From: Gemmatimonadota bacterium | Lineage (GTDB): Bacteria > Gemmatimonadota > Gemmatimonadetes > Longimicrobiales > Gaopeijiaceae | NCBI GenBank assembly: GCA_009692205.1 | Contig: SHZR01000019.1 | Location: forward strand, 1-55,077 | Length of the DNA: 55,077 bases | Direction: 5' to 3' | Part shown: one piece after another, positions 28,501 through 54,788 of the stretch | Position numbering within the stretch: position 1 is the stretch's first letter | Layout: the number at the start of each line of letters is the position of its first letter | The notes under the pieces: generated by a model | The model's database searches: none | What the model was told of the DNA's origin: nothing | The model's input: only the letters and a program-made list of their open reading frames with translations | Position numbers and translations under genes: made by a program

Positions 28501-29715
28501 ATGCTGAGCTTCGAGATCGTCAAGGTCGCGATGGGTGCGGTGCGCGCGAACCTGCTGCGCTCGGTGCTCACCACGCTCGGCATCGTCATCGGCATCGCCG
28601 CGGTCATTACGATGGTCGCGCTCGGCGAGGGCGCGCAGCAGCGCGTGCAGGCGGAGATCAACCGGATGGGCACGAACGTGCTCACGATCCGGCCCGGCCA
28701 GCAGTTCTCGTTCGGCGTGTCGCGCGGTGACGCCGAGATGTCCATCGAGGATGCGATGGCGCTGCGCGAGGACACCGGCGGCCTCCTCCAGGTCTCTCCG
28801 GAGCAGCGCACCGGGTTGCAGATCTCGTATCTGCGCTGGAACGCCCGCGCTGATGTGCTCGGTGTGTGGCCGGAATACTTCAATATCTACGACCACACGC
28901 TCGTCGCGGGACGGTACTTCACCCAGAGCGAGGTGGGCGGGCGCCAGCGCGTCGCGGTCCTCGGCTTCGACGTGCCGACGAATCTCGGCGAGACCCCGCC
29001 CGAGTACCTGATCGGAGAGACGATCCAGATCCGCGGAATCGGGTTCGAAGTCATCGGTATCCTCGCGGAGAAGGGCGACGCGTCGTTCCTTCGCCCGGAC
29101 GGGAGCATCTTCATCCCGCAGTCGACGGCGCAGTACCGCGTCATGGGAAGCCGCAATCGCCTCAACACGATCTATGCGGCCGCGGAGAGCCCCGAACAGC
29201 TCGACCAGGCGTATGCCGAGATCGACCGCATCTTACGTCGGGAGCACCACATCGGTGCCGGAGAGGACGCGGACTTCAGCATCTCGAACGCCGCGGACCT
29301 CCTCGAGACGTTCAACGAGACGCGCCAGACGTTCACCATGCTGCTTGCGGGCATCGCGGGCATCAGCCTTCTCGTCGGCGGCATCGGCATCATGAACATC
29401 ATGCTGGTGTCGGTGACGGAGCGGACCCGCGAGATCGGCATACGCAAGGCGCTCGGCGCATCCAGACGGGCCATCATGACGCAGTTCCTCGTGGAGGCGC
29501 TCTTCCTGTGCGTGCTCGGAGGGATGCTCGGCGTGGGCGCCGGGTACGGCGCGGCGGAGGCGATCTCGCGCATTGCCGAGTGGGAGACCGCGGTGTCGCC
29601 ACAGGCGGTCCTGACGGCACTCGCGTTCTCGGCGGGGGTGGGGTTGTTCTTCGGGATGTGGCCCGCGAGACGGGCAGCGATTCTCGACCCGATCGACGCG
29701 CTGCGGTACGAGTAG
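28501..29715 (+). CDS. MacB-like ABC transporter permease
   Basis: 404 residues. The mechanotransmitting four-helix permease: first TM at residues 18-42 (LRSVLTTLGIVIGIAAVITM), a large periplasmic domain to about residue 280, then three TMs (MLLAGIAGISLLVGGIGIMN; FLVEALFLCVLGGMLGVGAG; VLTALAFSAGVGLFFGMWPA). The coupling motif TREIGIRKALGASRRAI precedes the third TM. Lacks a fused ATPase, which is supplied by the gene at 26143. Likely exports a small molecule or peptide in partnership with the MacA-like adaptor. Confidence 0.9.
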   Translation: MLSFEIVKVAMGAVRANLLRSVLTTLGIVIGIAAVITMVALGEGAQQRVQAEINRMGTNVLTIRPGQQFSFGVSRGDAEMSIEDAMALREDTGGLLQVSPEQRTGLQISYLRWNARADVLGVWPEYFNIYDHTLVAGRYFTQSEVGGRQRVAVLGFDVPTNLGETPPEYLIGETIQIRGIGFEVIGILAEKGDASFLRPDGSIFIPQSTAQYRVMGSRNRLNTIYAAAESPEQLDQAYAEIDRILRREHHIGAGEDADFSISNAADLLETFNETRQTFTMLLAGIAGISLLVGGIGIMNIMLVSVTERTREIGIRKALGASRRAIMTQFLVEALFLCVLGGMLGVGAGYGAAEAISRIAEWETAVSPQAVLTALAFSAGVGLFFGMWPARRAAILDPIDALRYE

Positions 29716-29725
29716 GCTCTTTGGG

Positions 29726-29829
29726 GGGTCGGAGGCACGAGGCTCCCCTTCGCGGCTCCGGCTGATCGCGGTTATTCTGCCGGGCGGCTGACGTGCGACG
29801 CGCTCAGGGGAGCCTCGTACCTCCGACCC
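29726..29829. repeat. Long inverted repeat between convergent genes
   Basis: Arms 29726-29749 and 29806-29829 (24 bp each) match as inverted repeats at 23 of 24 positions, enclosing a 56-bp spacer with smaller inner pairing (CCGGC/GCCGG). It lies 10 nt after the permease stop and ahead of the convergent PDZ gene's end. The arms resemble those of the element at 52114-52279 (shared blocks GGGG, AGCCT, GTACCTC, CCC). No T-tract, so not an ordinary intrinsic terminator; it may be a bidirectional terminator or a REP/MITE-like mobile palindrome. Confidence 0.75.
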
Positions 29830-29941
29830 GGCTTCACGGTCGTCAGCGCGGCGATAGGGTCGAGAGTAGCTGCTGACGCGGGGGGCTGAACGGACGTCTT
29901 TGCCTATCGCGGCGACGCTGGCGCGCGCCGCGACTCGGGGG

Positions 29942-31123
29942 CTAGCGGCTGCGGAGCAGGACCTCGATGCGCGAGCCCTGCCGCACCAGCGTCACAGGTA
30001 GCGTAGCGCCGGCTCTCGAGATGCCGGTGCGGAACTCGTCGACGGAGCGGACGGCTACGCGGTCGAGGTTCACGATGACGTCGCCGGGTTGGATGCCGGC
30101 CATCGCGGCGGGGGTGCCGGGGGTGACGTCGACTACGAGCACGCCGGTCTCCACTCTGAAGTACTCGGCGAGGCCGGGGCGGAGGTCGACGACTTCGGCT
30201 CCGGCCACGCGATTGCTTCCCAGCAGGTAGGGCGTGAGCGGTCGGAACGTCGCGGGCGGTTCGGGCGCGTCGGCGTTGGGCGCATCCGGTGGCGCGGGCC
30301 ATGGGTACTCGAGCCCGGCGGTCACCCTCGCGGCTTCGGCCATGGCGGCGCGCAGCTCGGCCGACTGCAGAACCACGTCCTCGATGTCGGCACGGAGCTC
30401 GGTGAGTTGCGCCTCGACCTCCCGGACCTCGGAGCGGCTGACGCTCCGCCCTCGGCGACGCTCAGCGAGCCGGCTCTCCTGCTCACGGAGCCCGTCGATC
30501 CGACGATTGAGCTGATCCATCTCCAGGCGGAGCGAGTCGTGCTGCTCCCCTCGGAAGACGAAGAACTCGAAGGGCGCATCCACGGGCTCGGGCCCGGTGG
30601 GCGGGGCCACGGTGAAGCGCTGGCGCGGCGCGTCCGGTGGTGGCGGTGCGAAGGCTCCACGCGTCGTCGCGAGGATGTGGATGCGCAAGGAATCCATCGC
30701 GCGGAACATCGTCTCCGTCATGGAATCGACGGTGAGGTCGGCGTTGATGGTCCACGCCTCGAGGTCCACCGGACGCTCTGCTGCGCGGAGGCTGAGGTCG
30801 AGGCGGCGCCCGTTCCTCTCCAGACGGATCTGGACGCGATCTCCCACGCGGAGCGCGAGCCGCTCCGCGAGCTGCTCGAAGTCCACGGCCGTGCTCACGT
30901 CGTTGATGGTCAGTATGCGGTCGCCCACCTCGATGCCGGCCGAGGCCGCGGGGCTACCCTCGCGGACCTCCGTGACGACCGCGGCGGCCGCTTCCCCAGA
31001 AGCCAGTCGGCCGCTCTTCACCTCGAACCCGATTCCGATCCAGGCCGGGGCGCGCTGTGCGAGCACGGCGCTCCCCGGCAGGGTGAGTGCGAGGGCCAGC
31101 AGGGAGGTCCGCAGGATTCTCAT
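29942..31123 (-). CDS. Periplasmic protein with two PDZ domains and a coiled coil
   Basis: 393 residues with a signal peptide (LLALALTLPGSAVLAQ). PDZ 1 covers about residues 27-115 (GSPAASAGIEVGDRILTIND), PDZ 2 about 320-393 (GTPAAMAGIQPGDVIVNLDR). Between them lies a Pro/Ala-rich linker and a charged coiled coil (LRLEMDQLNRRIDGLREQES and VEAQLTELRADIEDVVLQSA). There is no protease domain, so it may be a peptide-sensing or scaffolding protein. It follows the anti-sigma gene by 2 nt, making a sigma/anti-sigma/PDZ operon in which it could sense envelope stress. Confidence 0.85.
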   Translation of the reverse strand: MRILRTSLLALALTLPGSAVLAQRAPAWIGIGFEVKSGRLASGEAAAAVVTEVREGSPAASAGIEVGDRILTINDVSTAVDFEQLAERLALRVGDRVQIRLERNGRRLDLSLRAAERPVDLEAWTINADLTVDSMTETMFRAMDSLRIHILATTRGAFAPPPPDAPRQRFTVAPPTGPEPVDAPFEFFVFRGEQHDSLRLEMDQLNRRIDGLREQESRLAERRRGRSVSRSEVREVEAQLTELRADIEDVVLQSAELRAAMAEAARVTAGLEYPWPAPPDAPNADAPEPPATFRPLTPYLLGSNRVAGAEVVDLRPGLAEYFRVETGVLVVDVTPGTPAAMAGIQPGDVIVNLDRVAVRSVDEFRTGISRAGATLPVTLVRQGSRIEVLLRSR

Positions 31124-51435: not shown

Positions 51436-51672
51436 ATGAGTACGACAGTGACGGTCCGGCTGGACGAACCGCTCCGGGAAGCTTTGGAGGCCCGCGCGCA
51501 GGCCTCCGGCACCACCATCTCCGAGGTCGTTCGCGACACCCTGAGGGAAGCGCTGGCGGAGCGACCGCTCGGTGAGCGCATTGGCCACCTCAAGGGCATC
51601 CTAGAATTGGAGGTTGAAGTGGACGACGATCCTTGGCGCCGCCAGATCAAGGAGCGCAACTGGCGGCCCTGA
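51436..51672 (+). CDS. Ribbon-helix-helix antitoxin (VapB/RelB-like)
   Basis: 78 residues. STTVTVRLDEPLREALEARA is the DNA-binding beta strand and first helix; ASGTTISEVVRDTLREAL is the second. The C-terminal tail (PWRRQIKERNWRP) would wrap around the toxin. It overlaps the PIN-domain gene. Autoregulation of its own promoter is expected. Confidence 0.8.
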   Translation: MSTTVTVRLDEPLREALEARAQASGTTISEVVRDTLREALAERPLGERIGHLKGILELEVEVDDDPWRRQIKERNWRP

Positions 51673-52091
51673 AGCCATGGCTCGTGGACACTGGCCCGTT
51701 GGTGGCCTTTCTCAGCCGGAAAGACCCGGATCACGAGCGCATGAGTGAGGTCCTCGGCGCTTTTCCAGGACGAATGCTCTCGACCGGGGCCGTGGTGACC
51801 GAGGCGATGTTCTTCCTCGCGAAGGCTCGTGTCGGGCCGGCGGCTCTCGCCGAACTCGTCTCCAGCGGGGGCATCGTCATCGTGGACGTATTCCAGCCGT
51901 CGGACCTCCGCGCGGCTGCCCGGCTGATGAGCCGATATGAAGACACGCCCATGGACTTCGCCGACGCGACGCTAGTCCTGACGGGCGAGGCCCTCGGCGT
52001 GCTCGACATCCTCACGCTCGACCGTCGCGGCTTCTCCACGTTCCGAACGAGCAGCGGCGAGCCCTTCCGGCTGGCCCTGGACGCATCCTAA
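51633..52091 (+). CDS. PIN-domain ribonuclease toxin (VapC-like)
   Basis: About 152 residues. Acidic active-site residues: Asp19 (PWLVDTGPLVAFL), Glu57 (VVTEAMFFL), Asp108 and Asp111 (PMDFADATLV), with Asp130 nearby. PIN nucleases cleave tRNA or rRNA when not held by the antitoxin. The start is uncertain: TTG 51633 overlaps the antitoxin by 40 nt; no better ATG exists in frame. Confidence 0.78.
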   Translation: MAPPDQGAQLAALKPWLVDTGPLVAFLSRKDPDHERMSEVLGAFPGRMLSTGAVVTEAMFFLAKARVGPAALAELVSSGGIVIVDVFQPSDLRAAARLMSRYEDTPMDFADATLVLTGEALGVLDILTLDRRGFSTFRTSSGEPFRLALDAS

Positions 52092-52113: not shown

Positions 52114-52279
52114 GGGGCGAGCCTGTACCTCTCTTCCCGGAAGGGGATCGTCGCGGGTGCGACTCCAGGCGGGTCAGACGAGGCCTCTCGACTACGCACC
52201 CGCGCCGTAAGCGAGTCCTAGCCTACTCTCCCCATGAGACGAGCGACCCCTGGAGGGGAGAGAGGTACAGGCTCGCCCC
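52114..52279. repeat. Long inverted repeat between convergent genes
   Basis: Arms 52114-52138 and 52255-52279 (25 bp each) pair at 24 of 25 positions, with a 116-bp spacer holding a second perfect inverted pair GCGGGTGCG/CGCACCCGC. The element fills nearly the whole gap between the VapC-like gene and lptG and touches the lptG stop. Arms resemble those of 29726-29829. Possible bidirectional terminator or mobile palindrome. Confidence 0.75.
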
Positions 52280-53346
52280 TAGGTCCGCACGCGCGCGAGC
52301 AGCAGGAGCGCCGCTCCGAAGAAGAAGATATTCGGCATCCACGCCGCCGACCACGGCGAGATCGCGCCGGCCTCACCCATCGCGCCGGCGAACTTGAGCA
52401 TCATCGTGAAGACGATCACAGTCAGGAGCGAGATGCCGATCCCGAAGGCCGTGCCCCCGCGCTTGCTGCTCGTGGCGAGAGGCGCGCCGAACAGGATGAT
52501 GATCAACGTCGCCACGGGCACGGAGAGGAGCTGGCCGCGACGCACGAGCCACTCGGTCGCATCGCCCCCCGTGCGCTCGAGGATGGCTGCGAGCCTCGCG
52601 ATCTCCGCGTACGTCATCTCTTCGGGCTCGCGGGGCACCTCGAGTAGATCCTCGGGCCTCTCCTTCATCTCCGGCATCGTCATACGCTCGAACTGGACCG
52701 CGCGCTCGGTGCTGTCCGGCAAGAGCGTCCGCATGTAGCCCTGGGCGAGCGTCCACCCCTCGCCCTCGGTCCAGTTTGCGGCCTCCGCAGTCACGTGCGT
52801 CCCGGGGGACTCCGCCGAGGGCGGGCGCTCGAGCACGACGCCCGTCATGCGGCCATCCGAAGCGGTGAGGCGCGTCACCTGCCAGCTGAGCCCGTCCTCG
52901 GAGCGATAGACGAAGTCGGAGCGCCAGGTGCGGCTGGGGCCTTCGGCGCGCTGGATCTGCGCGGCGATGCGGTTCCCACGCGGCACGACTTCGCTCAGCC
53001 CGAGCGCGACCCCGGTCAGCAGGACGCCCAACACCACGAGCGGAGCCATGATGCGGTGGAAGGAGATCCCTCCCGCCTTGGCGGCGACGATCTCGTGGTG
53101 GCGGGTCATCGAGTGGATCGTGAAGATCGTCGCGACGAGCGCCGCGATGGGGAACGCGTACTGGAGGTACTCCGGCATCTTGTAGAGGTACGACAGCGCG
53201 ATCTCGGTGCGGCTGAGCCCGCGGTCGAGGTACTGGTCGAGCCGCTCGGTGAAGTCGCCCAGGATGAAGAGGGGAGGCACCGCGAGCGATACGACCACGA
53301 ACAGCTTCATGAAGCTGCCCACCACCAGGCGGTCGAGCGTGCGCAT
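52279..53346 (-). CDS. lptG: LPS export permease LptG
   Basis: 355 residues. Inner-membrane half of the LptB2FG transporter that extracts lipopolysaccharide. TMs at the N-terminus (SFMKLFVVVSLAVPPLFILG, QYAFPIAALVATIFTIHS) and C-terminus (LLSVPVATLIIILFGAPLAT, FAGAMGEAGAISPWSAAWMP), flanking a periplasmic jellyroll domain. I call it LptG by its place after LptF; the two are paralogues. ATG 53346 overlaps the lptF stop by 1 nt. Confidence 0.85.
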   Translation of the reverse strand: MRTLDRLVVGSFMKLFVVVSLAVPPLFILGDFTERLDQYLDRGLSRTEIALSYLYKMPEYLQYAFPIAALVATIFTIHSMTRHHEIVAAKAGGISFHRIMAPLVVLGVLLTGVALGLSEVVPRGNRIAAQIQRAEGPSRTWRSDFVYRSEDGLSWQVTRLTASDGRMTGVVLERPPSAESPGTHVTAEAANWTEGEGWTLAQGYMRTLLPDSTERAVQFERMTMPEMKERPEDLLEVPREPEEMTYAEIARLAAILERTGGDATEWLVRRGQLLSVPVATLIIILFGAPLATSSKRGGTAFGIGISLLTVIVFTMMLKFAGAMGEAGAISPWSAAWMPNIFFFGAALLLLARVRT

Positions 53347-54788
53347 CAGGATGCCTCCGCCGTGGACCCGAGCTTCCGACCGAGCCTCGCCCGCAGCGAC
53401 TGCCACATCTCGTCGAAGCCGCTCCCTCGGGTATTCACGCTCGCCCGCCCCATGCGTGCGGCGAGTACGATGCCCGCGACGAGGAAGACCACGTTGCTCA
53501 CCCACATCGTCACCGCGGGGTCGGCCACGCGACGGTCGGCGAGGCTCTCGCCGGCGATCAACCCCACCCAGTAGACCGAGAAGATGACCGTGGACGCCGC
53601 GATGACCAGCCCGACGCCGCCGCGCGGGAAACGCAGCGCAAGCGGCGGCCCGATGAGCGTGAACACGATGCATGCGAACGCGATCGCGAGCTTCTTGTGG
53701 ATCTCGACGTTGAAGCGGTTGACCGTCTGTTCGAGAGCGCCCGCCCTTGCTGCTCGAGACCGGGCCTCGGCCGCGACCTCCTGTACCATCGCGTCCCTCG
53801 AGCCCGATGACGTGCTCCGGACGCGCCATCCTCCGATGTCCGCTTCGGTGAACGCGCCGGTCGAGTCCGTCCCAGACGGCTGGTCGAGCGCCACGAGTAC
53901 CGCGCGCATCGCGTCCGTCCGGTTCTCGGTACGCACGCTGTCGAGCTCGGCCTGGCGCTGGTGCGCATTCTCGGACAGGAGCGCGATGCTCATCTCACGA
54001 TCGGAGCGGTCGGATCCGCCGAGGCGCCGCTCGAGCTCGTTGCCCACGCCCCGCAGCGGAATGACCTGCTGCTCGAAGAAGAGGCGCTGGAATCCCCCCT
54101 CTCGGTCGGCCTGCGCCTCGTGCACGACGCCGTCGTAGAGGGTCAGGTAGAGGTCCGTGCGCGCCGCGTTGAACGCCATCTCACCCCGAGCCGCGTACGT
54201 CGTGCGGTGGCGGAGCGGGTCGTTGGCATCGAAGATGGCCACGTTCCCGAGCGTCGCGGACTCGTGGTCGATGCGGTCGGCGGTGAGGAAGTACAAGTCG
54301 CTGCCGCCGCCCGGGCGAAGCTCGTTGACGACCTGCTCGCGCAGCTCCAGGGTCGGGCTCTTGCGACCGATATCCAGGATGAGGTTCTTTAGGGCGTGGT
54401 TCGACTCGGGCAGCACCTTGTCATTGAAGTAGAACATCACCGTCGCGGCGACCACACCCATGCCGACGACCGGCGCCATCATCTGGCGTGGCCGGATGCC
54501 GCCCGCGGCGAATGCGGTGATCTCGTTCGAAGCCGCGAGATCGTTGAAGGCATAGAGCACGGCCACCAACACGGCCATGGGCAGCGCGAGCGCGATGACG
54601 TGAGGTAGCGACAGGACCAGGAACTCGACGATCACTGTCCAGGGCAGTCCTTTGCCCACCAGGTCGCCCACCCTCTGGGAGAGCGAATTCAGGAAGATGA
54701 TCGCGGTGATCCCGGAGAGCGCGAACAAGAACGGGCCCATGTGGACCCTGATCAAGTATCTGGTGAGCACTCCCATGCGCATCCCCAA
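53346..54788 (-). CDS. lptF: LPS export permease LptF
   Basis: 480 residues, longer than the usual 350-390. N-terminal TMs (FLFALSGITAIIFLNSLSQR, ALALPMAVLVAVLYAFNDLA), the conserved cytoplasmic helix NEITAFAAGGIRPRQMMAPV, a jellyroll, and C-terminal TMs (IAFACIVFTLIGPPLALRFP). About 100 extra residues (260-360: helical, Asp/Arg-rich, LLSENAHQRQAELDSVRT) sit in the periplasmic part. ATG 54788, 54779-type Met residues allow small start shifts. The outer LptA/LptD partners are not here. Confidence 0.87.
   Translation of the reverse strand: MGMRMGVLTRYLIRVHMGPFLFALSGITAIIFLNSLSQRVGDLVGKGLPWTVIVEFLVLSLPHVIALALPMAVLVAVLYAFNDLAASNEITAFAAGGIRPRQMMAPVVGMGVVAATVMFYFNDKVLPESNHALKNLILDIGRKSPTLELREQVVNELRPGGGSDLYFLTADRIDHESATLGNVAIFDANDPLRHRTTYAARGEMAFNAARTDLYLTLYDGVVHEAQADREGGFQRLFFEQQVIPLRGVGNELERRLGGSDRSDREMSIALLSENAHQRQAELDSVRTENRTDAMRAVLVALDQPSGTDSTGAFTEADIGGWRVRSTSSGSRDAMVQEVAAEARSRAARAGALEQTVNRFNVEIHKKLAIAFACIVFTLIGPPLALRFPRGGVGLVIAASTVIFSVYWVGLIAGESLADRRVADPAVTMWVSNVVFLVAGIVLAARMGRASVNTRGSGFDEMWQSLRARLGRKLGSTAEAS

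Follow-up and report, generated by a model that had tools for sequence, protein, structure and literature searches.

Bacterial stem-loops cluster where genes converge (Petrillo et al. 2006, PMC1590033), and in bacteria generally repeats are known to be more frequent towards the ends of genes (PMC1590033, PMC13155455). A survey of 13 genomes has reported that U-tracts are unnecessary at many hairpin-linked ends (PMC8355165). Template switching has been described as a process that both creates and repairs perfect stems (PMC8794818). In the literature searched, a scope that leaves most subscription journals outside, no account of an element such as the one described below was found for Gemmatimonadota, and as far as that literature goes transcript ends in this phylum are hardly described.

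The window, that is, the whole stretch of 55,077 nt that was analysed, contains one such hairpin at 29726–29829. A sequence-only reading had described it as a near-perfect 24-bp inverted repeat with a 56-bp spacer between a MacB-like gene and a convergent PDZ gene, lacking a T-tract and having a stem far beyond that of an ordinary terminator. The repeat is as described, with 23 of the 24 arm positions complementary; gene calls and Pfam place it between these two genes; and on neither strand does a terminator scan of 29500–30200 give a stem with a T-run behind it at the element. The names macB-type, tuf and sufD used here are presumed from Pfam matches. The features of the locus are as follows.

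28501 to 29715, plus strand: MacB-like/FtsX permease gene, the upstream neighbour (Pfam PF12704, MacB_PCD, and PF02687, FtsX)
29674 to 29703, plus strand: left outer arm, inside the macB-type coding sequence at its 3' end; 26/30
29726 to 29749, plus strand: left inner arm, 24 nt, GGGTCGGAGGCACGAGGCTCCCCT, from the inverted-repeat scan
29750 to 29805, no strand assigned: spacer, 56 nt, sharing CGGCTGATCGCG (plus strand) with the spacer at the same site in G001; no core by the R2 search (see below)
29806 to 29829, minus strand: right inner arm, 24 nt, complementary to the left arm at 23/24
29844 to 29873, minus strand: right outer arm, which repeats the end of the macB-type gene in inverted form; 26/30
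29942 to 31123, minus strand: PDZ-domain protein gene, the convergent neighbour (PF13180, two PDZ stretches)

The macB-type gene, whose protein has its closest named relative in a Gemmatimonadota MAG (65% identity), has its stop codon 11 nt ahead of the left inner arm. The inner-arm repeat scores 21 (match +1, mismatch −2) and is the sole one of its score in the window by a strict scan; none of 100 first-order Markov versions of the window reaches this score, their maximum being 18, attained once. The single inner-arm mismatch reads A.C on the plus strand and G.U on the minus strand. The 125-nt element has a folding energy of −74.8 kcal/mol, in keeping with a GC-rich hairpin straight after a gene, and 29666–29885 folds as RNA into one unbroken hairpin of −134.2 kcal/mol (z −6.3). 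The outer arms, which the sequence-only reading had not mentioned, enclose the inner arms to give a palindromic region of about 200 nt. A search of the whole window with Rfam 15 gives no match at family gathering thresholds.

The 56-nt spacer, the absence of a T-run on both strands and a stem much longer than is usual make it very unlikely that this is a long-stemmed intrinsic terminator of the ordinary kind. The place and the pairing do fit such a terminator, and the 13-genome survey, in which U-tracts are unnecessary, is in its favour as well (PMC8355165). A mobile palindrome of the REP or MITE type, which had been among the roles offered from the sequence, is hardly credible at all. The arms are inverted and the position is intergenic, as in such elements, but only one copy exists: a search of the whole genome for the arms, the check that the sequence-only reading had proposed while counting a single occurrence as half of what would speak against it, finds them once (225-nt query; 2,717,492 bases in 61 contigs, completeness listed as 97.9%), the best unrelated match having an E-value of 0.08. 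The plasmid records searched with the element give no match, and inspection by eye shows no target duplication where the arms end. A dispersed or mobile repeat is thus rejected for these arms on the grounds of the single copy and the plasmid search. A weak match of the spacer in G001 (C29) was dropped, as it seemingly is coding sequence.

A search with the macB-type gene end reached relatives of the locus in 59 genomes; 30 loci were kept, 28 with a recognisable gene end. Two genomes of the same genus also carry a hairpin at this site. The stem in G001 is 22 nt long, with 19/22 paired and a loop of 69 nt, and the one in G002 is perfect at 21/21, with a loop of 127 nt. The arm letters at this site are unrelated among the window, G001 and G002, and the build of a long stem with a long loop persists. 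Directly beyond the right arm, GGCTTCACGG is common to the window and G002. In G004, also of this genus, other letters follow macB, with no such hairpin there, and the fifth genome, G003, is uninformative at this site, its contig stopping inside macB.

The 28 macB-type gene ends, the window's own genome included, comprise 21 convergent sites, five with a neighbour in the same direction and two with an undetermined neighbour. A long-loop repeat (score of at least 13, loop of at least 40) lies in the gap at 6/21 convergent sites versus 0/5 same-direction sites; in convergent gaps of at least 140 nt the share is 6/8, a figure that a hairpin may itself raise by widening the gap. One of the six, L056, is a low-complexity purine sequence. 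Since 15 of the 21 convergent sites are without one, the long-loop hairpin is not required at the macB site. At two sites, L039 and L060, the hairpin is of the ordinary kind, with a short loop and T-rich sequence behind it. At another locus (L053, in G055), a 19-nt long-loop stem after the macB-type gene encloses a terminator-like hairpin with a short T-run.

The distribution of inverted repeats with loops of up to 150 was scanned in 775,077 bases of the window's genome (the window plus 720 kb, 28% of the genome), with genes called by a simple codon-usage program. Eleven repeats score at least 16, six in convergent gaps, five in same-direction gaps and none in genes or divergent gaps. The six include 29726–29829 twice, by its inner and its outer arms, and one linked to tRNA-Asp (G000 C17:17252), excluded as unrelated: of the arms of this 16-nt inverted repeat (L158:17252–17384), one is part of the tRNA-Asp gene and the other lies in the adjoining gap. 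After removal of the duplicate count and the tRNA-Asp repeat, 3/8 lie in convergent gaps. Convergent gaps amount to 8,481 bases, or 1.1% of the sample and 12.8% of its intergenic DNA; the share of 3/8 is far above the former, yet not clearly above the latter. The window's genome is not alone in having long-loop repeats, because a mixed 514-kb set from other bacteria contains three that score at least 16 with a loop of at least 40. No repeat of score 14 or more is present in 200 kb of G004, and several are present in 200 kb of G008. Three overlapping long inverted repeats of ATCGTGCCAATCG-like units lie between genes at L208:10930–11361 in G008.

The sequence-only reading had also offered a bidirectional terminator or RNA-stability element, and the structural side of this proposal stands: the convergent position, the lack of a T-run, the long stem and the hairpins of the same build in relatives all fit a two-way 3'-end element. 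Transcription through the element, its effect on RNA ends and its template-switch history are what we infer. Judged from the sequence, there is about an even chance that 29726–29829 is a two-way transcript-end hairpin between convergent genes, kept by its shape and place, the arms of which are rewritten, probably by template switching. Transcripts from either side would form the same 24-bp duplex past their stop codon, and the hairpin may help to halt or trim read-through into the opposing gene without a T-run and may shield the newly made 3' end. Template switching from one side of the palindrome to the other would probably do the rewriting, and it may also have placed the macB end, inverted, in the right outer arm. 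One such event would leave just this kind of copy, which a scan of the same site in G001 and G002 does not find.

A self-renewing palindrome could also persist without function, and it is possible, if unlikely, that the element is a mutational product only, that is, a functionless template-switch palindrome with arms kept alike by copying across it. The near-perfect Watson–Crick arms with letters unrelated between species, the outer arm being an inverted copy of a coding end, and a mechanism that is published (PMC8794818) are all in agreement with this. However, mutation by itself does not explain why three congeners have a hairpin at the same convergent site, nor why repeats scoring at least 16 are missing from the coding and divergent DNA of the sample. 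A hairpin with a persistent place and shape and replaced letters would offer a clean test of selection versus template switching in stem pairing.

Four sites in the genome sample carry giant hairpins, with a score of at least 20 and a loop above 40.

29726 to 29829: in the window
52114 to 52279: in the window, between a small gene and the convergent LptF/LptG gene
C22:94976 to 95121: directly after sufD
C22:23952 to 24113: directly after a small gene resembling those of c-type cytochromes (Pfam match under the cut-off)

Three of them have a related core, and 29726–29829 is the exception. At the sufD site, the hairpins of the window's genome and of G003 are alike in build, with 31-nt arms and an 84-nt loop. 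Their inner part is 82% identical, and their outer 22 bp have wholly different letters that still pair at 22/22 and 19/22. No hairpin is found at the sufD site in G001, G002 and G004. Past the sufD hairpin of the window's genome lies a direct copy of the core end and the right-arm start (L174:15122–15160), by eye like the right arm of G003, as if an older arm had been left behind. Similar cores follow tuf in both G001 and G002, with a further one at the macB site of G002, and likeness to the core is visible by eye in 52114–52279 and C22:23952, the latter scoring 12.4 bits in the R2 search with limits near its arms. In the tuf–rpsJ gap of G002, a perfect 25-bp stem with an 88-nt loop (L187:1554–1691) follows the core-bearing hairpin of tuf; its loop resembles a reverse-direction core by eye, and in G000 the sequences flanking a similar loop (L266) pair poorly.

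The second giant hairpin of the window, which the sequence-only reading had not listed, is built as follows.

52114 to 52138, plus strand: left arm, 25 nt, 24/25 paired
52139 to 52254, plus strand: core, a loop of 116, the top R2 match of the window (17.3 bits), with limits exactly at the arms
52255 to 52279, minus strand: right arm, in contact with the LptF/LptG stop codon (gene at 52279 to 53406, minus strand)

The match has an E-value of 0.5 over the 144 kb searched, a score that by itself would not convince; we regard 52114–52279 as a divergent member of the core family. The small gene on its other side (51633–52091) gives no Pfam match and presumably is PIN-like.

MAFFT alignments of all seven cores and of nine cores misaligned the divergent ones and were discarded, so five clear cores, trimmed to the arm borders, went into the first covariance model (A7, R1). 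In the genus (five genomes, 15 rows, E of at most 10), R1 returns its own five and one new strong place, G000 C8:200–295 (E 5e-9), just after tuf and enclosed by 23-nt arms paired at 22/23. In 121 genomes of the family, it gives 19 matches outside the genus with an E-value of at most 0.05. Because the arms had been left out of the model, they provide an independent test of these matches: at 13/19, arms scoring at least 12 lie beside the core, each above all 200 permutations, and two more, with arm scores of 7 and 8, likewise exceed all 200. The four that are not above the permutations are the two of a tandem pair in G135, the partner in a tandem pair in G130, and G005 C420, which is probably false, as is a match at G003 C17:19033 without arms. 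In the two tandem pairs (L284 and L277; G130 C98 and G135 C117), the cores start 152 and 263 nt apart and have common arm or flank sequence. The arms are copy-specific save for three pairs of like copies, and a later core match in G103 has 34-nt arms paired at 34/34. At 18 core-family loci, Rfam (E of at most 1) gives one weak match, off the core and under its gathering score.

At 15 of 26 core loci (25 plus G103), the stop codon of the adjacent gene is within 62 nt, in one constant orientation of the core. Of the remaining loci, four lie near contig ends, G022 C31 is reversed, and six have no clear gene that close. At the four (L291, L294, L280 and L287) the contig ends 66–96 nt off and rpsJ- or presumed secE-like genes lie on the other side; these contig ends are probably assembly breaks at duplicated tuf genes. 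The adjoining genes encode EF-Tu, SufD, the E1 part of 2-oxoglutarate dehydrogenase, an iron-trafficking protein, and ABC-2 and zinc-dehydrogenase proteins. Under stricter filters, which lose weak matches, the model R2 finds the core in 12/154 genomes and 7/61 genera of the order, all in the window's own family, and in 9/395 genomes of a phylum sample, again in that family only. The exact core pattern is present in no viral contig, and core-like sequence in no plasmid record.

Over 26 core matches (24 distinct), 92.9% of cells show the two core helices, P2 and P3, as paired, with two-sided changes at 11/15 of their pairs. The covariation score is 0.490 versus 0.176 (sd 0.018) for shuffled alignments, is reached by 0/500 shuffles and compares with 0.075–0.156 for slid partners, counts that are biased in favour of the tested structure, to which the alignment was fitted. 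In the outer stem, the tuf elements of G001 and G002 differ by two full pair swaps (A–T to G–C and T–A to A–T) and two one-sided changes. An extra helix P4 (CCGCU with AGCGG) is not claimed, being 74% paired at best on the alignment. Read along the adjacent gene, arm mismatches in the genus are A.C 16 times and G.T once, a count that extends into inner stems and stands beside 27 other mismatches. On the strand of R1, P3 has nine G.U versus two A.C; P2 has four versus eight, and the arms of other genera are even at six each, the rows of all these counts being related by descent. The opposite strand, on which these mismatches would read G.U, is therefore not upheld as the working strand, since P3 agrees and P2 and the arms of other genera do not.

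The hairpin at 29726–29829 matches the core family in its arms and its place after a stop codon, with a 56-nt spacer shorter than the core-bearing ones. It might thus be a decayed or loop-swapped member, the ancestor having had the core and the loop having been exchanged or shortened in the line of G000 and G001, a history that we hold to be rather doubtful. In its support, the geometry and the place are alike, core features are present in three of the four giant hairpins of the sample, and the hairpin of G002 at the macB site of the window is a strong core match (87.9 bits), though it is among the five model-building sequences. Against this, R2 with filters off finds nothing convincing of the core and helices P2 and P3, with no score above 9 bits in 29600–30000 and a best match wholly in or around the element of 1.8 bits on the minus strand, and the spacer common to G000 and G001 is a sequence that differs from the core. 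The macB site has held both core-bearing and core-less hairpins.

Taken together, these data lead to the tentative suggestion that the lineage has an unlisted gene-end element, in which a copy-specific, near-perfectly paired outer stem surrounds a core that is conserved and contains two helices that covary, the whole lying immediately behind the stop codon of a housekeeping gene (for example tuf, sufD or a 2-oxoglutarate dehydrogenase gene), with 52114–52279 as a divergent and 29726–29829 as a core-less member. The pairing of the outer stem would be kept by selection, template switching or both. If so, this would be a structured RNA or single-strand DNA element with one part evolving by shape alone and another by sequence. 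The core family is a concrete target: its roughly 25 copies are spread over 12 genomes, many of them beside housekeeping genes that can be named, its helices covary, and Rfam has no entry for it.

Among known systems, REP elements and MITEs, which repeat by sequence, are likewise palindromic and intergenic, whereas the arms here are single-copy or copy-specific. Bidirectional intrinsic terminators resemble the locus as palindromes between convergent stop codons that are usable from both strands, and differ from it in that the stem here has 24 bp, the loop 56 nt, and there is no pair of A-run and T-run. The convergent-gap stem-loops of Petrillo et al. (2006, PMC1590033) share the position at gene 3' ends in convergent gaps; here, the stem and the loop are longer and the site is kept with new letters in congeners. 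The hairpins attributed to template switching by Monttinen and Loytynoja (2022, PMC8794818) have the same long near-perfect stems, multi-base compensatory changes and inverted copies, but were studied in RNA genes, whereas those described here lie at gene ends, beside a many-copy family with a conserved core.
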